A stretch of DNA of 59,479 nucleotides from the NCBI RefSeq assembly GCF_001687335.1, contig NZ_MAGO01000013.1:1-59479 (forward strand), read 5' to 3'. The stretch's first letter is position 1. Each line of letters starts with the position of its first letter. A model generated the notes under the pieces. The model saw nothing but the letters and a program-made list of their open reading frames with translations. It was not told where the DNA came from and searched no databases. Origin of the DNA: Dissulfuribacter thermophilus (GTDB lineage: Bacteria > Desulfobacterota > Dissulfuribacteria > Dissulfuribacterales > Dissulfuribacteraceae). The translations under genes were made by a program, and so were the position numbers. Of this stretch, positions 2,505 through 51,515 are shown piece after piece.

Positions 2505-3404
2505 TTAACTGCTTCCAGATTTCCACTGTTCACAAAAGCTTAAGAATTCGTTCAATAGGGCTGTTCTGTTTTTTTTGCGATGCAGGACTATAAGTAACTT
2601 GCGTTGTAGCTTTAGAAAGGGGACTGGCAGACGAACTAACCATCCTTCCTCGATCTCTCTCCCAACGCTCAATGAGGAAAGGCATCCGATTCCTAGTCCA
2701 GACTCCACAGCCTTTTTTATGGCCTCGGTGTGTCCTAGTCTCATGAGAACATTAAACTGTCTTATTTGTTTGGTGATTTCTGACTCAAATATCTCTTCAG
2801 TACCTGAACCCTGTTCGCGTACTATCCATTTGGCCTCTTCCAAATCCCGCTTGGTAAGCTCGCTTTTCTTGCACAGTGGGTCACGAGGACCTGCGATCAC
2901 CACTAGTTCGTCATCGAGCCATGGAATGGTTTCTATTTCTTTATGATGGGAATAGCCCTCTATGAAACCAATGTCATAGTCACCTGAAAGGATGCCCTTC
3001 TCAACCTGCTCTGTGTTGCCCACCTGAAGGGTAGGCACAATATTAGGATACTTATTAACAAAGGCTCCCAGTAAATATGGCAATAGGTAGTTGCCAATGG
3101 TAGTGCTTGCAGACACCTTTAGTTCTCCGGCTATGGAACCGCCTGTTTCTGTTAGCAATGTTTCGACGTTCTTGACCTGCCGAAGTATCTCAGTAGCATG
3201 GGGTAATAGGAGTCTTCCCCTGTCATTTAGGACTAATCGTCGACCAAGCCGGTCAAAAAGTGGCGTTCCAAACTGATGTTCCAGTTCTGATATTGCCATA
3301 CTAATTGCTGATTGGGTGAGAAAGAGTCTCTTACTGGCCTTAGTAACATGTTGAGTCTGTGCTACTGCCAAGAAGATTTCCAACTGTCTTAGGGTAATTG
3401 CCAT
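2505..3404 (-). CDS. LysR-family transcriptional regulator (YeiE/CbbR-like)
   Basis: This 299-aa protein has the standard LysR layout. A winged helix-turn-helix occupies residues 1-60 (AVAQTQHVTKASKRLFLTQS, then AISMAISELEHQFGTPLFDR). A linker helix follows, and then a two-lobed effector-binding domain from about residue 90 (GELKVSASTTIGNYLLPYLL, DIGFIEGY). The gene is divergent from the rhodanese gene with a 186-base shared upstream region containing a dyad at 3502-3521, the usual arrangement for a LysR protein controlling its neighbour and itself. In E. coli the related YeiE gene sits near the putative exporter gene yeiH. A YeiH homologue lies 4 kb away here, so control of sulfur-anion handling is a reasonable inference. 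The effector cannot be read from sequence. Confidence 0.92.
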   Translation of the reverse strand: MAITLRQLEIFLAVAQTQHVTKASKRLFLTQSAISMAISELEHQFGTPLFDRLGRRLVLNDRGRLLLPHATEILRQVKNVETLLTETGGSIAGELKVSASTTIGNYLLPYLLGAFVNKYPNIVPTLQVGNTEQVEKGILSGDYDIGFIEGYSHHKEIETIPWLDDELVVIAGPRDPLCKKSELTKRDLEEAKWIVREQGSGTEEIFESEITKQIRQFNVLMRLGHTEAIKKAVESGLGIGCLSSLSVGREIEEGWLVRLPVPFLKLQRKLLIVLHRKKNRTALLNEFLSFCEQWKSGSS

Positions 3405-7369: not shown

Positions 7370-8845
7370 ATGACTGACAAACGCAAATGGTATGACGGTA
7401 TGTTCAGTACCGAGGATTGGTGGGCCTTTTGGTTGGGGGGCTTTTTTGTAATTTTAGGGATTTTGGCCGCAGTTACCCACTTACCTTTGACAGGATGGAT
7501 TGTAAAATTCAAAGGCTGGGTGGATATTTCACATGCTTTCGGCTCAGCACAAAAAGGGCTCATGGGGCCTTGGGCCAGTCTTATTGTATCCTACATAATT
7601 TTTACCGCTGTCACAGCGGCTGCAGCCGCTATTATGAAATGGAATGTTAAGGATTATATAGCGGCATGGACTATTATTTTTGTATTGACAGTTGTTGCAT
7701 ACATAATTGGTAAACACGCTTATATCAGTGCGCCCGCCACCAAATGGCACAAATTTGGCCTAGAAAGTGGACTTCAGCTCGGAGGAGCTTATTACATCTT
7801 TGCTTTGGTAATTGGTCTCATTATCGGAAACTTTGCTCCAAAAAGTTTTATAGATTTCATGAAGAAAGGAGCAAGGCCAGAATGGTTTATCAAGATAGCT
7901 ATTGTCTGTTTGGGAGCCAAGCTTGGAGTTAAGGCCTTGGAGAGTGCCCACTTTGCAGCTCACCTTATTATCTCCGGTATTTGTGCCACGATCGCAGGCT
8001 ATCTCCTTTACTGGCCCCTCGCTTATTTGCTGTTGCGTCGGGGATTTGGCTATTCACGCGAATGGTCGGCCTGTTTTGCTTCTGCAAGCTCCATCTGTGG
8101 AGTCTCGGCTGCTATCGCAACTGCCGGTGCTGTTAGAGCTAAGCCGATTATCCCAGTTCTGCTTTCCACCTTGGTAGTAGTTTACGCTACAGTTCAGCTC
8201 ATTCTCTATCCCCCCATTCTCACCAAATTTTTACTTCATGAGCCTATTGTAGCAGGGTCTAGCCTAGGATTGGCAATTAAAACTGACGGTGCCGATGCGG
8301 CTTCTGGAGCTATTTTAGATGAACTTATGCGTTCTGCGGCCCAACTCAAACTAGGCGTGATCTGGGAAGAAGGGTGGATTACCCTTTCGTCCATCATGAC
8401 CAAGATTTGGATAGATATGTTTATCGGTCTTTGGGCCTTTATCCTGGCTGTTATTTGGGTGGCCTACTTTGAAAAACGTAAGGCCGGGGAAAAGATTCCT
8501 AAGATTGAAATCTGGTTCCGCTTTCCAAAGTTTGTCTTGGGTTACTTCTTTGCAATGTTGATCGTAATGATTCTGGGCTTTGGAAATATTGTACCAGTTA
8601 AAGATCTCATTGCCGGTGTAAAGCCGGTTGAGGGCGCTCTTAGGCATCTTTTCTTCTTACTTACCTTTACAAGTATTGGTATTGTGACAGACTTCCGCGA
8701 ACTTAGGAAAGCCGGTTTAGGTAAACTTGCTGTTGCTTATGGTCTGGTGATTTTCTGTATTGTTACCCCGTTGGCACTCCTTATTGCCTGGGTGTTCCAT
8801 CACGGCATGATGCCTCCAGTAGTTAAAAACATGATAGGAGGGTAG
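7370..8845 (+). CDS. YeiH-family putative sulfate exporter
   Basis: A 491-aa integral membrane protein with about 12 hydrophobic segments. Family signatures are KIAIVCLGAKLGVKALES, ASASSICGVSAAIATAGAVRAK and FTSIGIVTDFRELRKAG near the C terminus, matching the conserved-hypothetical-698 (YeiH) family annotated as putative sulfate exporters. It is longer than E. coli YeiH (about 350 aa), with an N-terminal extension containing additional membrane segments (residues 20-150). A GGGGAGTG ribosome-binding site precedes ATG 7370. Gene order is small membrane protein, YeiH, then a small soluble protein, with gaps of 15 bases and 1 base, so they form an operon. In an organism producing sulfate by sulfur oxidation or disproportionation, sulfate export is a sensible role. 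Transport has not been shown for most family members. Confidence 0.9.
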   Translation: MTDKRKWYDGMFSTEDWWAFWLGGFFVILGILAAVTHLPLTGWIVKFKGWVDISHAFGSAQKGLMGPWASLIVSYIIFTAVTAAAAAIMKWNVKDYIAAWTIIFVLTVVAYIIGKHAYISAPATKWHKFGLESGLQLGGAYYIFALVIGLIIGNFAPKSFIDFMKKGARPEWFIKIAIVCLGAKLGVKALESAHFAAHLIISGICATIAGYLLYWPLAYLLLRRGFGYSREWSACFASASSICGVSAAIATAGAVRAKPIIPVLLSTLVVVYATVQLILYPPILTKFLLHEPIVAGSSLGLAIKTDGADAASGAILDELMRSAAQLKLGVIWEEGWITLSSIMTKIWIDMFIGLWAFILAVIWVAYFEKRKAGEKIPKIEIWFRFPKFVLGYFFAMLIVMILGFGNIVPVKDLIAGVKPVEGALRHLFFLLTFTSIGIVTDFRELRKAGLGKLAVAYGLVIFCIVTPLALLIAWVFHHGMMPPVVKNMIGG

Positions 8846-8846
8846 A

Positions 8847-9092
8847 GTGCAAAAAAGAATAGCCGTAGCCCTTGACTTCAAGGAAGGTCTCTGGCGGGCA
8901 AGGCTAGGGAAAGAGGAAATATGTTCCAAAAGTCTGGATGGGCTTAAAAATGGTCTTGCCCACCATTTTCAAAAAACTGGACTTCGGGGCAATGTTGAAG
9001 TAACGGTGAGTTACGACTGGCAAAAATTGCCTCAATGGTTATGGCAATATCAGAGTTATTATTTTGAAAGGGTTTGGAGCTTACAAGTCTAA
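8847..9092 (+). CDS. Small conserved-type protein, likely frameshifted (DUF5395-like?)
   Basis: Starts at GTG 8847, one base after the YeiH stop, with ATAGGAGGG as ribosome-binding site. The 81-aa product (AVALDFKEGLWRARLGKEEI and so on) ends abruptly as FERVWSLQV. In the +1 frame, coding-like sequence continues as GAYKSKKDDGSRVIEVIDK to a TAA at 9181-9183, directly before a strong terminator. Deleting one T in GTTTGG near 9075 would join both parts into one protein of about 111 aa. So the gene is either recently broken, has a sequencing error, or is read by frameshifting. It may belong to the DUF5395 group of small proteins; that assignment is from memory and unsure. It probably shares the operon function with YeiH. 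Confidence 0.6.
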   Translation: MQKRIAVALDFKEGLWRARLGKEEICSKSLDGLKNGLAHHFQKTGLRGNVEVTVSYDWQKLPQWLWQYQSYYFERVWSLQV

Positions 9093-9183: not shown

Positions 9184-9227
9184 ATAATAGTTGGAGGCGA
9201 GCCAAAGTGCCCGCCTCCAACTATTAT
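9184..9227 (+). terminator. Strong hairpin terminator of the YeiH operon
   Basis: ATAATAGTTGGAGGCG (9184-9199) pairs perfectly with CGCCTCCAACTATTAT (9212-9227), a 16-bp stem with a 12-base loop. It starts at the TAA of the extended small frame, supporting that frame's end as the true gene end. T-runs follow only further on (9260-9267). Confidence 0.7.
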
Positions 9228-9663
9228 CTGCTTAATCCCTCCTCATTTAGTTAGTTGGTCTTTTTTTAGAGTATTTTTTCAGGTCTTTTCTTCAAGGTTC
9301 AACCACACAACTTTTATAATCCAGATTTTTATTTCAGATGGAAGATTTGTCGGTTATCTTTATCCCAAATTATGCATTTTGACTACCTGCTTGCATCTTC
9401 GGCAAGGCTTTGGAGCATCATAATCTGGATTAATGGAGTCCATACTGAGAGGGATAGTCAGTCATTCTAATCCCTTTTTCAGGCGAATTTTTCCGATAAA
9501 ACTGTATTTTATGTAAAAGATAGTTTTCTATACAGTAAAGGTAGATCCAAATTGGAGACTCTAACTACTTGTTATTGTCTAATTTTAAGTTATTTACAAA
9601 CGAATAAAAAAGAACTATTAAAGACGATTTCAAAAAAAATAAAAAATATTATAGAGGAATCTA
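9228..9663. other. Intergenic region with decayed palindromic repeat
   Basis: No gene seen. CCCAAATTATGCA at 9364-9376 matches the left terminus of the palindromic element family. It is followed by GCTTGCATCTTCGGCAAGGC and TAATCTGGATTA, which mirrors ATAATCCAGATT at 9316. The remaining bases are A+T-rich and likely contain the promoter of the DUF202 gene. Confidence 0.4.
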
Positions 9664-10038
9664 ATGAGAGATATAAATCCAAGAGATTTGTGGGCCTTAA
9701 ATAGGACTATTTTGGCACTTTGTAGAACTTCTATCTCAATGATAGTATTGGGATTTGTAATAAAAAAATTTGATTTTTTTCTTGAGGAAATTTCATCAAA
9801 TTTACTGAAGATTTCATCAAAAGATATTTATCAAAGTGAGGCTTTATACCACTATATGGGTTTATCGACAACGCTGGCAGGTATTGTATTATGTATCTAT
9901 ACGATTTTTTATTATAAGAGGCAGCTAAAACTATTAAAAGAAGGTAAGGCACATGACGATGAATATTTGTTTTATGCTATTAGTTTATTCATCATGGTAT
10001 TGGGTGTAGCGTTATTTGGAGGAATGCTTTTTCTATAA
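9664..10038 (+). CDS. DUF202-family inner-membrane protein
   Basis: A 124-aa protein with three predicted membrane segments (about residues 20-40, 66-86 and 104-124). The N-terminal DLWALNRTILALCRTSISMIVLGFVIKKF matches the DUF202 (YidH-type) signature of an asparagine/arginine pair followed by RTs and a hydrophobic glycine-rich helix. Function of the family is unknown. In this copy the loop between helices one and two (SSNLLKISSKDIYQSEALYHY) is longer than usual. ATAGAGGA precedes the ATG. It opens an A+T-rich block leading to the HlyD/TolC/TDT genes but is 400 bases away from them, so co-transcription is uncertain. Confidence 0.75.
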   Translation: MRDINPRDLWALNRTILALCRTSISMIVLGFVIKKFDFFLEEISSNLLKISSKDIYQSEALYHYMGLSTTLAGIVLCIYTIFYYKRQLKLLKEGKAHDDEYLFYAISLFIMVLGVALFGGMLFL

Positions 10039-10445
10039 GGAGAAGATGATGGATATTAAATCATTGGGGAATAAAAATATAACTGAAGTAGTCAGGATTT
10101 TTTACATCTAACTGGTTTACTCTAAATATGACTACCAGGACTTTTTGTGTTATATTTTGACGCATACAAAAGTGAATACATTAGTTGTACCATTAGCTAT
10201 TTATAAAATTAATAGCCATGATTGGTTTTACTTTTTAAGGTGTTAATACTAAATTTTGGTAAGTTTTAAAGGACATTGCTATCTGTTTTACGGATACCAG
10301 TGGTTGAAAAAGACTGTAATTTTGTATAATCTGAAGAGGATATAATGAAACAAACTAGAAAAATAAAATTAGGATAAACTAACAAAATACATTAGAGGTA
10401 GATCCATTTTTAAATATACGCACTCAAGTTATTTAAGGACAAAAA
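10039..10445. other. A+T-rich gap with two ribosome-site-led short frames
   Basis: AAGGAGAAG leads ATG at 10046 into a 21-codon frame (MMDIKSLGNKNITEVVRIFY) ending at 10111. GAAGAGGATAT leads ATG at 10345 into a 10-codon frame (MKQTRKIKLG) ending at 10377. Neither is recognisable. They could be truncated gene starts or leader peptides. Notably, a secretion ATPase that would be expected next to HlyD is not here. Confidence 0.35.
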
Positions 10446-11714
10446 ATGAAGGGAACAACAATGAAAGATCAGAATAGCACCATTCCATCTAAAGAACAGT
10501 CCAAAAAAAACAGTGATCATCATACATTAAAGTGGCTAATCTTTGTAATGCTTTTTGGTTTTATTAGTATCTATTCCTTTTTCATTAAGGATCTTACAGT
10601 GGTTGTAGCTAAAGGAAAAATCGTTTCTCAGAATTACGATAAGATTATTGAACATCCAAAAGGTGGATTTGTTGCCAAACTTTACGTTAAGGAAGGAGAA
10701 TTTGTTAAAAAGGATACTCCACTTATCGTACTAGATCATACAGAAACTGATAAGCAACTGCAAACTGCCATTAATGAATATGATGAGTATTTTATAAAAA
10801 AAGTACGATATGAAGCAGAAGCTAAACTGTCAAGAACGGTAGATTTTCAAGATATAAAAAATAAATTTATGGATAAGTCGCGAGCTGATGCTTTAATAGC
10901 AAAGGAACGCAAACTTTTTGAAACAGAAAAAAAATTACTTAAGGCGAAGATTAGATCTATAAAAGATCAAAACCATGCACTAGAAGAAAAAATTCAAGGA
11001 TTGCAACAAGTTGTTTTATCTGATCATCATCAATTGCAGTCTTACAAAGAAGAGTTGGCAAAATATAAAAAGCTTTATAAAAAAAATATGGTAAGTCAGT
11101 TGGTTATATTTGATCTTGAGCGAAAAATTAATAAATTTGAAGCATCAATTGCTAAAGCACAATCTCAGATTGATGAAGCTTCAAAAAAAATTCAGGCCAA
11201 TAATAGTTTAATTAAATTTTATAAACTTGAGTATATTCATCGTGCACAGGAAGAAGTTAAAAAGATTGGTATCAAACTTGTCGCACTACGAAGTAAGATA
11301 GAAGCTTTGCGTCATATTAACGAATTGGCCATTCTCAAGGCGCCAGAAGATGGTATTGTAATGGATATGCGCGTCCATGCTATCGGTGAAGTGGTCGATC
11401 CTCATCAACCAATTATGACTATTGCATCAACACAATTTGTTATGGTTGAAGCTTATATTCAACCAATTGATATCGATAAAGTTCAAATCGGACAAAAAGC
11501 TTCTATTCTTTTCCCAACTTATGCTGTTCATTCACATGTACCTATAGAAGGAAAGATAGTCTACATATCACCAGACGTCTTACCTAAGAAAAACTTATAT
11601 AAAATTCTTGTAGAAATCACGGGTAAAGGAATGGAAACAATCAAAAAGAACAACATGCATATTGTTCCAGGCTTACAGCCAGCAGTAGTCTATATAAATA
11701 CATATAAACATTAA
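10446..11714 (+). CDS. HlyD-family membrane fusion (periplasmic adaptor) protein
   Basis: A 422-aa adaptor with an N-terminal membrane anchor (about residues 28-48), a first lipoyl half-motif (IIEHPKGGFVAKLYVKEGEFVKKDTPLIVLD), long coiled coils (about residues 95-300, including the tip-like KLYKKNMVSQLVIFDLERKI) and a second lipoyl half (AILKAPEDGIVMDMRVHAIGEVV). A beta-barrel part follows (IQPIDIDKVQIGQKASILFP). This matches type I secretion adaptors of the HlyD/PrtE class. It stops at AVVYINTYKH and lacks the usual final ERT-type C-terminal segment. Start is ATG 10446 or ATG 10461. The next genes encode TolC and a TDT transporter and no ABC ATPase is present. Arginine codons are mostly CGA/CGT/CGC, with AGG absent, unlike the flanking genes, which suggests foreign origin. 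Confidence 0.88.
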   Translation: MKGTTMKDQNSTIPSKEQSKKNSDHHTLKWLIFVMLFGFISIYSFFIKDLTVVVAKGKIVSQNYDKIIEHPKGGFVAKLYVKEGEFVKKDTPLIVLDHTETDKQLQTAINEYDEYFIKKVRYEAEAKLSRTVDFQDIKNKFMDKSRADALIAKERKLFETEKKLLKAKIRSIKDQNHALEEKIQGLQQVVLSDHHQLQSYKEELAKYKKLYKKNMVSQLVIFDLERKINKFEASIAKAQSQIDEASKKIQANNSLIKFYKLEYIHRAQEEVKKIGIKLVALRSKIEALRHINELAILKAPEDGIVMDMRVHAIGEVVDPHQPIMTIASTQFVMVEAYIQPIDIDKVQIGQKASILFPTYAVHSHVPIEGKIVYISPDVLPKKNLYKILVEITGKGMETIKKNNMHIVPGLQPAVVYINTYKH

Positions 11715-11742
11715 TTTTTAGAAAATATTAAAGGGGTATTCA

Positions 11743-13071
11743 ATGAATATTAAATTCATCATTGTATTAGTAGTTGTGTTGTTTTCTCATCCAGCTTTGG
11801 CACAACAATCGTTATTTAGTTTGAAATCTTTGTGTGAAATGGGTTCTCAAAAAAATCCTAGTATTAAGGCATTAGACTATCGTATTCTTGCAAGTAAATA
11901 TCATTATAAACAAGCTACTGATAAATATAAGCCCCATATTACTTTTAGAGGAAACGTAGGATATGAACAATATGACAATAAATTTTCGTCTCAAACACTT
12001 TCATATAAAAGAGGATTGTATGAATACTTTGTTGATCTAAAACAACCAATTTATGAACCTCAAATTATAAACTCTATTACTGATGCAAAATTGAAGCTGA
12101 AACTTTCTCGATTGGAAAAAGAAGATAGAAGGGCAAAGCTAATTGTCCAGATTGCTAAAACAGCTATTGAATTGATTCGGCTAAATCAAATTAAAGTTAT
12201 CACAGAAAAGAAGAAAAAAATGTATCAAAATTTGTTAGAGATTACTCAAGCAAAGTACGATATTAGATATTCCGATAAACCAACTCTATTTCAGGCAAAG
12301 GCGCAATTAAAGAAAGTGCAGAGTGATTTAGTTAATATTAATCAAATATACCGATTTACATTAAATCAATTAAAATCTCTTGTGAATACCTCAGAAATAT
12401 CCGAAAAATACTTTAAAAAGTCATTTCATATTAATCCTGAAGAACTTGTAGAATACTTTAATCCTGATTTGTATAACTCGCAAAAAAAGAAAATTGATCA
12501 AAATACTCAAATTGGTATTTATAAACTTTACTTGGATATTGCAAAAAATAACATTCAAAAACAAAAAATTAAACACTATCCAACAGTTAATTTGGATCTG
12601 AGCTATGGAAATTCTCAAGAAGAAAGTGCTATTAAACGTCGAAATTCTTACACATTTATGTTCCAATTACAGTTCCCAATTTATCAAGGTGGAGAGATAT
12701 CTGATCAGGTTCATAAAGCAAGATGGCTTTATGAGGCAGCAAAAGAAGACTATAAAAATGTTCGCTTAAAAAGTAATGTTTCCTTCGAAACCGATTGGAA
12801 GCAAATTATCTCAAGTATCAGTACGATTAATTCAACAATTGCTGCAGTAAAAGCTGCGAAAGTATATCTTGATACAACAATAGAATCATTCCGAAATGGA
12901 ATTAAAAATTTGACAGACGTTCAGCTTGCAGAAGCAAGTTATTATAACGCCAAAGTGCAGCTAATCAATGCAGAAGCAACTATGCTTCAATCGCTTACCG
13001 ATCTTTATTACTATATTGCCATGGCAAATTGTGACACAATTGGCAAATTCGAATCAAAATATCTTCAATAA
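11743..13071 (+). CDS. TolC-family outer-membrane efflux protein
   Basis: A 442-aa TolC-type channel with a signal peptide (residues 1-20, SHPALA-QQ) followed by two repeats of long helices and short barrel strands. Signatures include LCEMGSQKNPSIKALDYRI at the start, TFRGNVGYEQYDN and VDLKQPIYEP for the first barrel hairpin, and YTFMFQLQFPIYQGGEISDQ with the helix NSTIAAVKAAKVYLDTTIE for the second. It should trimerise to form the outer-membrane duct joined to the HlyD-type adaptor encoded 28 bases upstream. AAAGGGG lies before the ATG. The gene shares the A+T-rich composition of its neighbours. C-terminal DTIGKFESKYLQ is short. Specific cargo is unknown. Confidence 0.88.
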   Translation: MNIKFIIVLVVVLFSHPALAQQSLFSLKSLCEMGSQKNPSIKALDYRILASKYHYKQATDKYKPHITFRGNVGYEQYDNKFSSQTLSYKRGLYEYFVDLKQPIYEPQIINSITDAKLKLKLSRLEKEDRRAKLIVQIAKTAIELIRLNQIKVITEKKKKMYQNLLEITQAKYDIRYSDKPTLFQAKAQLKKVQSDLVNINQIYRFTLNQLKSLVNTSEISEKYFKKSFHINPEELVEYFNPDLYNSQKKKIDQNTQIGIYKLYLDIAKNNIQKQKIKHYPTVNLDLSYGNSQEESAIKRRNSYTFMFQLQFPIYQGGEISDQVHKARWLYEAAKEDYKNVRLKSNVSFETDWKQIISSISTINSTIAAVKAAKVYLDTTIESFRNGIKNLTDVQLAEASYYNAKVQLINAEATMLQSLTDLYYYIAMANCDTIGKFESKYLQ

Positions 13072-13098
13072 GGTATGTGTTAACGTAGAGGAGTAACT

Positions 13099-14265
13099 AT
13101 GAGTTTAAAACCTTTCGCTAACAAAGAGTTAAAGAAAATCATTCGCAACTTTACTCCTAACTGGTTTACTGTAAACATGGGAACGGGGATATCCTTTCTG
13201 ACATTATTCAACATCAGAGCTGATCTATTTCCGGGGGAATTGCTATTGGGCCAAGTTATTTGGTTTGTAGATATCTTTTTCTTCGTACTATTTTCCTTCT
13301 TATTTATATATAGAATGATACTTTTCCCTGATACTATAAAACCTATGCTTCAACATCCTGTTCAATCTATGTTTTTAGGAGCCATTCCCATGGCACTGGT
13401 ACCGGTTCTCGAGGGCTTCGCTATTTTTGGACCGTCGTTTTTGGGAGAACAAGCAATCAATATTGCATTATTTCTATGGTGGATTGATGTAATTCTCGCC
13501 GTTGGAGTTGGTTGGCTTTTACCTTATTTAATGTCTACTACACAAGAAAAGCATAAACTTGAAAATATGACAGCAGTATGGCTTTTGCCAATTGTAGCTT
13601 CAGAGGTTACTGCTTCAGCCGGAGGGGTACTTGCTCCATATTTTAGCGGAGAGACTGCCAAAACTATTATAATTGTCAGTTATGTTTTATGGACATTTTC
13701 TGTACCATTAGCATTTTCTATTTTAGTTATTTTGTTTTTGAGACTTGCCACACATAAACTTCCGCATAGAGCAATGGCAACTACTAGCTGGCTACCACTG
13801 GGACCACTTGGAACAGGTTCATTGGGAATGCTTCTCTTAGGTAGTGCAACTAAAGCAACATATATAGGTATTTATATTTCTCAAATTTCTGATTTCTTGG
13901 CTTCCTTCGGGTTTATTACAGGACTCTTGCTATGGGGTTATGGTTTATGGTGGTACGTTATGGCTTGGCTTTTTACTATTAAGTACTTTAATGAAGGATT
14001 ACCTTTTAATATGGGGTGGTGGGGGTTTACTTTCCCAGTTGGTGTATTTACAGCTGCAACATTTCAACTTTGGAGAGTAACTGATTATACAATATTTGAA
14101 ATTCTTGGACTAATTTTCTCCTTCCAGTTAATTATCTTTTGGATACTTGTTTTTACTAAAACGCTTAAAGGAATGTGGTCTGGATATCTTTTCCAAGCAC
14201 CATGTTTATCTAAAGAAACTGGATTACCGAAACCTCTAGAAGATTGTAATAAGGTAAATAATTAA
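13099..14265 (+). CDS. TDT/SLAC1-family anion transporter (TehA/Ssu1-like)
   Basis: A 388-aa polytopic membrane protein with about ten hydrophobic segments. The start (FTPNWFTVNMGTGISFLTLF), the middle SWLPLGPLGTGSLGMLLLG and GYGLWWYVMAWLFTIKYF-type helices are typical of the tellurite-resistance/dicarboxylate (TDT) family. That family includes fungal sulfite exporter Ssu1, malate transporter Mae1 and bacterial TehA. In this sulfur-rich setting sulfite export is attractive, but the sequence alone cannot separate sulfite from other anions. GAGGAG precedes ATG 13099, 27 bases after tolC, so the three genes look like one operon (adaptor, outer channel, inner-membrane anion channel). The pairing is unusual because adaptor/TolC normally serve an ABC, RND or MFS pump. 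Confidence 0.85.
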   Translation: MSLKPFANKELKKIIRNFTPNWFTVNMGTGISFLTLFNIRADLFPGELLLGQVIWFVDIFFFVLFSFLFIYRMILFPDTIKPMLQHPVQSMFLGAIPMALVPVLEGFAIFGPSFLGEQAINIALFLWWIDVILAVGVGWLLPYLMSTTQEKHKLENMTAVWLLPIVASEVTASAGGVLAPYFSGETAKTIIIVSYVLWTFSVPLAFSILVILFLRLATHKLPHRAMATTSWLPLGPLGTGSLGMLLLGSATKATYIGIYISQISDFLASFGFITGLLLWGYGLWWYVMAWLFTIKYFNEGLPFNMGWWGFTFPVGVFTAATFQLWRVTDYTIFEILGLIFSFQLIIFWILVFTKTLKGMWSGYLFQAPCLSKETGLPKPLEDCNKVNN

Positions 14266-14816
14266 CCCAAATTATGCAGTTCTCAAGTTTGCCGAAATGA
14301 TATCTTCATTGAAGATAAAGTCTGTACCATGAAGACCGCATCAAGTTTGATGCAAGTCAGTTGCAATGGTTGGTCAGAGCGCTAAGAGGGTAGGAGCCAA
14401 GTCAACTAGATTTTCCATTTGAACTTTGGATGTTGACAATGGTGAAAGAACTGATTTTTTTGGAAGTTTGGTGCGCGTTTAAGCGAGGTATCAGTAGGTC
14501 GCATTTTAAAGCCCCTCGGTTTTAGTCCTCAGAGATCTCTTATTTGAAGCCAGATGAGTAAGTTTGGAACCATGTAAAGCGCAAAGTCAGTCGGTCATTG
14601 GCGGTATCAAAAGAGCATTTGAAGGATAGAGCAATGGGAGTCCTCAGATCGTTGCAGAAGAAGGCGGTATTGATTCGTCCATTCTTCAAACCTTCCTTAT
14701 ATTGTTATACAATGGCATAATCACTGGCTTTACTTTTATAGATATTAATAAATACTAGATTTTTGCATTGAATTTTTAGAGGTATGCACAAATTTTTTAC
14801 TAAGTAGGGGGACAGC
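14264..14816. other. Intergenic region beginning with a decayed palindromic repeat end
   Basis: AACCCAAATTATGCA at 14264-14278 is identical to the left terminus of the copy at 51258 and begins inside the TDT stop region. Further inside only fragments of the element are recognisable (AAGTTTGCCGAAATG, GCATCAAGTTTGATGC hairpin). The rest to mazG shows no gene. GGGGGA six bases before 14817 is the mazG ribosome-binding site. Confidence 0.45.
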
Positions 14817-51257: not shown

Positions 51258-51515
51258 AACCCAAATTATGCACGGCAAAAGGGGGTAAAAATGATTTTTT
51301 CTATTGAGCAAAGTTGTTGCTCGCTCATAGCGTATCGGGAAACTTTCACCTTTTGGGTGAAACAAAATCATGTATTTTTTCCCCCTTTTGCAGCCCTTAG
51401 GGATTGGCGATTTTAACCGGGGCTCTGCGTTGTCAGGGGCTTGAAGTACCCTAGTACGTCTGCTTCCGGTCCGCCTTGCATTTTAGGCAAACTCGCCAAT
51501 TGCATAATTTAGGTT
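51258..51515. repeat. 258-bp palindromic intergenic element, copy 1
   Basis: Ends are AACCCAAATTATGCA and TGCATAATTTAGGTT, a 15-bp inverted repeat with one mismatch. Next inside, CGGCAAAAGGGGGTAAAAAT pairs with TTTTTTCCCCCTTTTGCAG (51372-51390 region), enclosing smaller hairpins such as GAGCAA-AGTTG-TTGCTC. The right half has GGGATTGGCGATTTT, CTGCGTTGTCAGGGGC, GTACCCTAGTAC and ACTCGCCAATTGCA, where TTGGCGA and TCGCCAA pair. It fills the gap between the cytochrome b stop and the YkgJ start. No reading frame is present. Confidence 0.85.

Follow-up and report, generated by a model that had tools for sequence, protein, structure and literature searches.

Which inner-membrane protein serves a HlyD-type adaptor and a TolC-family channel whose genes stand beside a TDT/SLAC1 anion transporter and no ABC gene? 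The question is raised by a locus of Dissulfuribacter thermophilus, in a stretch of 59,479 nucleotides (contig NZ_MAGO01000013.1, referred to here as the window). A sequence-only reading of this DNA had described an adaptor, a channel and a TDT anion transporter without an ABC ATPase between positions 9664 and 14265. It had suggested either that the anion transporter is coupled to TolC or that the ATPase gene was lost, leaving a system that is broken or uses a distant pump.

Organization of the gene block

The description of an ABC-free set held. Three intact genes in the order HlyD-TolC-TDT occupy positions 10446-14265 on the + strand, with intergenic gaps of 28 bp (HlyD-TolC) and 27 bp (TolC-TDT), and there is no ABC gene within this block. 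The first gene (10446-11714) encodes a HlyD-type periplasmic adaptor of 422 amino acids that scored 222.6 bits on TIGR01843 (cut-off 208.65) and covered model positions 4-397 of 422. The protein has an N-terminal membrane anchor and a long alpha-helical hairpin (about residues 144-296), and the type I C-terminal tail is missing. When its structure was modelled with two sequences as input, the hairpin was obtained with high confidence and the remainder was poor. The second gene (11743-13071) encodes a TolC-family outer-membrane channel of 442 amino acids (PF02321, 2.8e-45), which at 146.9 bits fell under the cut-off of the type I model TIGR01844 (225.15). The third (13099-14265) encodes a TDT/SLAC1-family anion transporter of 388 amino acids with about 10 transmembrane helices, matching PF03595 over its full length (positions 1-331 of 331; 2.3e-83, 280.6 bits).

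The upstream border had to be moved. The DNA beginning at 9664, which had been counted as the start of the block, is a separate + strand gene (9664-10038) for a DUF202 small membrane protein of 124 amino acids (PF02656) and no part of the adaptor. Directly behind it and ahead of HlyD, at 10046-10136 on the same strand, is a remnant of a second TDT gene consisting of the N-terminal ~30 codons, frameshifted. By tblastn the remnant matched the TDT N-termini of two other loci, L006 and L007, in two adjoining pieces and two frames (E about 1e-5), and it forms a 30-nt direct repeat of the start of the intact TDT gene (87% DNA match). An intact DUF202-TDT pair, with the DUF202 homologue immediately in front of TDT, was found in a Hydrogenothermus MAG (L008) at 60% and 71% identity to the window genes and with similarly tight spacing. 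The region is thus composed of a decayed DUF202-TDT pair and, behind it, the HlyD-TolC-TDT operon.

The G+C content of the block is 27-37%, lower than the 43-45% of the flanking genes, and TDT was absent from the 59 nearest relatives that were searched. The block was therefore probably acquired.

Several repeats and neighbouring genes were recorded in the surrounding DNA. The motif CCCAAATTATGCA is present in six copies in the window when one mismatch is allowed (0.14 expected by chance), at 51260-51513 (a pair), 9364, 14266, 31791 and 1378, and again at 2948-3230 of locus L126. The window pair and the L126 pair are each inverted and ~250-280 bp apart, like a MITE, and the HlyD-TolC-TDT block is bordered by two single ends. 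By eye, frame +2 of positions 14266-14816 resembles the end of an IS630-type transposase (VWNHVKRKVSRSLAVSKEHLKDRAMGVLRSLQKKAVLIRPFF); a Pfam search of this reading downstream of TDT gave no match, and the reading was rejected on that ground. On the other side, at 7370-9092, is a divergent YeiH-like PF03601 transporter (69.7 bits; TIGR00698, 27.1 of 232.6) with a DUF5395 gene directly after it. A 19-bp inverted repeat (95%) with a 6-nt loop lies behind this pair at 9184-9227 and is possibly a terminator. A 20-nt repeat (90%), present ahead of DUF202 (9530-9549) and ahead of HlyD (10387-10406), is perhaps a duplicated control region.

Recurrence of the operon in a second phylum

The neighbourhoods of 79 loci with related TDT genes were compared, and the HlyD-TolC-TDT order recurred in one of them, L005, from a MAG labelled Helicobacteraceae (Campylobacterota). 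Identities between the window and L005 proteins are 44% for HlyD, 43% for TolC and 74% for TDT. In L005 the end of the TolC gene overlaps the beginning of TDT, and the upstream ABC genes are oppositely oriented and have their own adaptor. Window and L005 proteins were sisters in the HlyD tree (support 100/100), the TolC tree (100/99) and the TDT tree (100/99). These three trees indicate that the association most likely had a single origin, before the window and L005 lineages parted. A chance neighbourhood was rejected because another phylum has the same order and the trees agree.

The adaptor of L005 scored 164.6 bits on TIGR01843, below the cut-off of 208.65. No third member of the adaptor pair was found in 397 Campylobacterota genomes, 228 genomes of the L005 family or 395 genomes of the window phylum, and about 1,600 genome searches together with the scanned collections returned only two instances of HlyD-TolC-TDT. 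Among viral contigs there was no relative of the window adaptor; plasmids held only distant adaptors (best 28.5%) and TDT proteins below 60% identity.

The comparison of the two genomes bears on the possibility that the block is a broken relic, a type I system decaying after the loss of its ABC gene, in which TDT is the only working gene. A truncated adaptor tail, the TDT remnant and the possible mobile-element ends at the borders of the block are what such decay could leave. Both the adaptor and the channel gene, however, are full and open in the two genomes, with pN at 0.37 against a near-saturated pS of 0.73, a pattern which suggests that purifying selection kept them intact down to 43-44% identity. 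Since a functionless relic would lose its frame over such divergence, we consider decay very improbable, and the earlier suggestion of a broken system accordingly unlikely.

Ancestry among type I operons and the search for a pump

The five nearest relatives of the HlyD-TolC pair (35-39% identity) are ABC-HlyD-TolC type I operons. The ABC proteins of four of those five operons were scored and reached 695-735 bits, compared with a PrtD cut-off of 510. Conservation of the three-gene order, which the sequence-only reading had proposed as a check, gave a divided result. The order is free of an ABC gene in another phylum, as L005 shows; in the wider adaptor family the ABC gene is directly upstream in 31 of 31 other type I adaptors, a position in which neither the window nor L005 has one.

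The second proposed check was for an orphan ATPase elsewhere in the genome. In the host genome, which is 99.97% complete, only two proteins carry the ABC-exporter domain PF00664, a count outside which MacB-type and other ABC pumps fall. Both are MsbA-like and stand beside LPS/glycan genes, with scores of 490-529 bits on MsbA but 279-283 on PrtD, for which the cut-off is 510. No PrtD/HlyB-type ABC ATPase was thus found in the window operon or the host genome. The L005 genome has one PF00664 protein, also MsbA-like. Seven other HlyD_3 proteins are encoded by the host and all adjoin RND or EmrB (MFS) pumps (RND genes read by eye), which leaves the window adaptor as the host's only HlyD without a conventional pump.

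These results have to be weighed against simple co-regulation, in which TDT would export its anion to the periplasm alone and the co-induced HlyD-TolC would serve another pump, for example an MsbA-like, MacB-like or RND protein. A MacB-type pump would have gone uncounted in the PF00664 search, and TDT proteins elsewhere in the family apparently function without HlyD-TolC: 78 of the 79 TDT loci, some of which reach contig ends, had no match to the window adaptor or channel, and the L005 genome itself has a second TDT without HlyD-TolC. Co-regulation is harder to reconcile with the lack of a type I ABC gene in both the host and L005 genomes, with the dedicated pump that each of the seven other HlyD proteins of the host has, and with a tie between HlyD-TolC and TDT that spans two phyla. 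In the window, moreover, the second TDT copy decayed and the copy linked to HlyD-TolC was kept. We regard co-regulation as unlikely.

Changes in the adaptor

The 31 type I adaptors all extend into a further conserved tail, some 20-30 residues long, that includes a Tyr and an invariant Pro. It is absent from the window adaptor, as had been noticed from the sequence, and short and altered in L005. Of the 48 positions at which at least 80% of type I adaptors agree, 14 were changed in the window/L005 pair. All of the tail positions (3/3) are among them, as is the invariant Trp in the membrane anchor (1/1; Trp to Tyr in both proteins). Nine control sister pairs were changed at 0-6 of 44-49 conserved positions, and the anchor Trp was unchanged in every one. 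When the comparison was made with Campylobacterota type I adaptors, 6 of 9 positions were changed through the end of the anchor (one residue before the anchor included) and 9 of 60 in the lipoyl and hairpin regions (Fisher p 0.002 for the anchor versus these, tail excluded). Three of the five hairpin changes are near the tip (207, 217 and 220), where the adaptors of known systems make contact with TolC.

A switch to another inner-membrane partner would be expected to leave such a trace, but an adaptor released from the ABC pump in some other way would show much the same, and a new role of any other kind would also account for the lost conserved positions. One such role is a HlyD-TolC pair acting alone, without a pump, for example on the permeability or stability of the envelope, with TDT a mere operon neighbour. 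The disappearance of the tail and of the anchor residues suits this proposal, but it does not account for the pair being inherited together with TDT in the two phyla, and we judge it improbable.

The TDT protein and its likely cargo

At E < 0.001 the predicted structure of the window TDT protein (pLDDT 83.6) had matches to entries for TehA and SLAC1 and to no others, with TM-scores against TehA of 0.66 (query) and 0.83 (target). No extra docking part was seen on it. The changes shared by the window and L005 TDT proteins fall on the predicted periplasmic side in 7 of 11 cases, and in one control pair the figure was 9 of 14, so this comparison did not set the window/L005 pair apart.

Clues to the cargo were sought in the TDT neighbourhoods of twelve close relatives (L005-L010, L013, L107-L110, and the near-identical L111/L112, counted once). 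In nine of the twelve, sulfur genes lay at most about 7 kb from TDT, namely TauE, YeiH, DsrE (in L006 the match falls just below the cut-off), rhodanese, SoxA/TsdA-type cytochrome c or YeeE. None was found by Pfam in L008, L107 and L111/L112. Behind the TDT gene of L005 are genes for DsrE, a sulfate/molybdate-type binding protein, a SoxA/TsdA-type cytochrome and rhodanese. The host carries dsrA (587.9 bits), which makes sulfite a cytoplasmic intermediate. The TDT family also includes Ssu1. This is the sulfite efflux protein of yeast (PMC6883346), and together with the sulfur neighbours and the host dsrA it makes sulfite or a related sulfur oxyanion our best guess for the cargo, by analogy.

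A real unit with some other cargo (a dicarboxylate, tellurite/selenite, bicarbonate or another anion) appears rather unlikely, although it overlaps with the explanation we prefer and differs from it in the cargo only. Malate carriage (Mae1), tellurite resistance (TehA) and other anions are known for TDT proteins, and a Paraburkholderia relative (L022) adjoins a malate dehydrogenase gene, as read by eye. What argues the other way is that sulfur genes surround most of the close relatives, L005 included.

Two further features of TDT loci were observed. In Acidithiobacillus, Acidocella and relatives (L011, L021, L026, L037, L052 and many others, by eye), TDT is divergent from a LysR-type regulator, likely a regulatory pair. 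Two long ORFs are found downstream of TDT in both L012 (9129-12180) and L014 (9162-12220).

Proposed exporter

On these comparisons of genes and trees, we give an even chance to a coupled exporter in which the HlyD-TolC of a former type I operon now serves TDT. A type I secretion operon would have lost its PrtD-type ABC pump, and a TDT/SLAC1 anion transporter would have replaced it. TDT would be the entry or gate in the inner membrane, and HlyD and TolC would continue the path as a duct through the periplasm and the outer membrane. Membrane potential or ion coupling would drive the anion, most likely sulfite or a related sulfur oxyanion, out of the cytoplasm by way of the TDT pore, and HlyD-TolC would then conduct it to the cell exterior. 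As the cell interior is negative, ATP would not be needed for this exit. We infer the exchange of partners from the evolution of the sequences; the docking of the TDT protein on HlyD-TolC in a physical complex is proposed, as are the direction, driving force and substrate of transport.

TolC-type channels are trimeric and adaptors hexameric. TehA is a trimer as well (PMC11050165), so the symmetry of such an exporter fits. The weak points of the proposal are that TDT proteins are nearly without a periplasmic part, TehA having no sizeable periplasmic domain (PMC11050165), and that an ion as small as sulfite could leave by ordinary porins, which makes the need for a TolC duct less than obvious.

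More tentatively, and at somewhat less than even confidence, the two operons may represent a new tripartite class that arose by exchange of a type I ABC pump, in which an ATP-independent TDT/SLAC1 channel docked on HlyD and TolC exports a small sulfur oxyanion straight out of the Gram-negative cell. If this is true, channel-type anion transporters would be a further class of tripartite inner-membrane component, and a type I adaptor would be able to swap its inner-membrane partner in evolution. Sulfur bacteria would gain an ATP-free removal of a toxic intermediate that bypasses the periplasm.

Comparison with known systems

Reviews name ABC, RND and MFS proteins as the inner-membrane partners in tripartite systems (PMC8277102, PMC13328181), and according to one of them there is no report of tripartite exporters with PACE, MATE or SMR proteins (PMC8277102). 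A literature search for TDT proteins with an adaptor plus outer-membrane channel or with TolC, or for sulfite export in sulfur bacteria, found nothing relevant. As in tripartite efflux systems, the adaptor, channel and inner-membrane transporter are encoded together in the window and in L005; the transporter is a TDT/SLAC1 protein instead of an ABC, RND or MFS protein.

The PrtD-HlyD-TolC type I systems of Campylobacterota (L169-L173) are the nearest relatives by tree, and the window block shares with them a TIGR01843-family adaptor, a TolC-family channel and the HlyD-TolC order. It differs in that a PrtD/HlyB-type ABC ATPase is missing from both operon and genome and that the conserved adaptor tail has been lost. 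The ABC gene stands in front in the type I systems, whereas the window has TDT behind TolC.

The MFS tripartite pump EmrAB-TolC resembles the proposed exporter in combining a membrane-anchored adaptor with a secondary transporter. EmrA is described as being without a membrane-proximal domain (PMC4158417). The inner-membrane component is an MFS antiporter in EmrAB-TolC and a TDT protein here, and the window adaptor scored 65.1 on the EmrA model, compared with a cut-off of 390.8. With Ssu1, TehA and SLAC1 the window TDT protein shares a full-length PF03595 match and a predicted TehA-like fold; unlike the arrangement proposed here, the known members of that family work alone, in one membrane.
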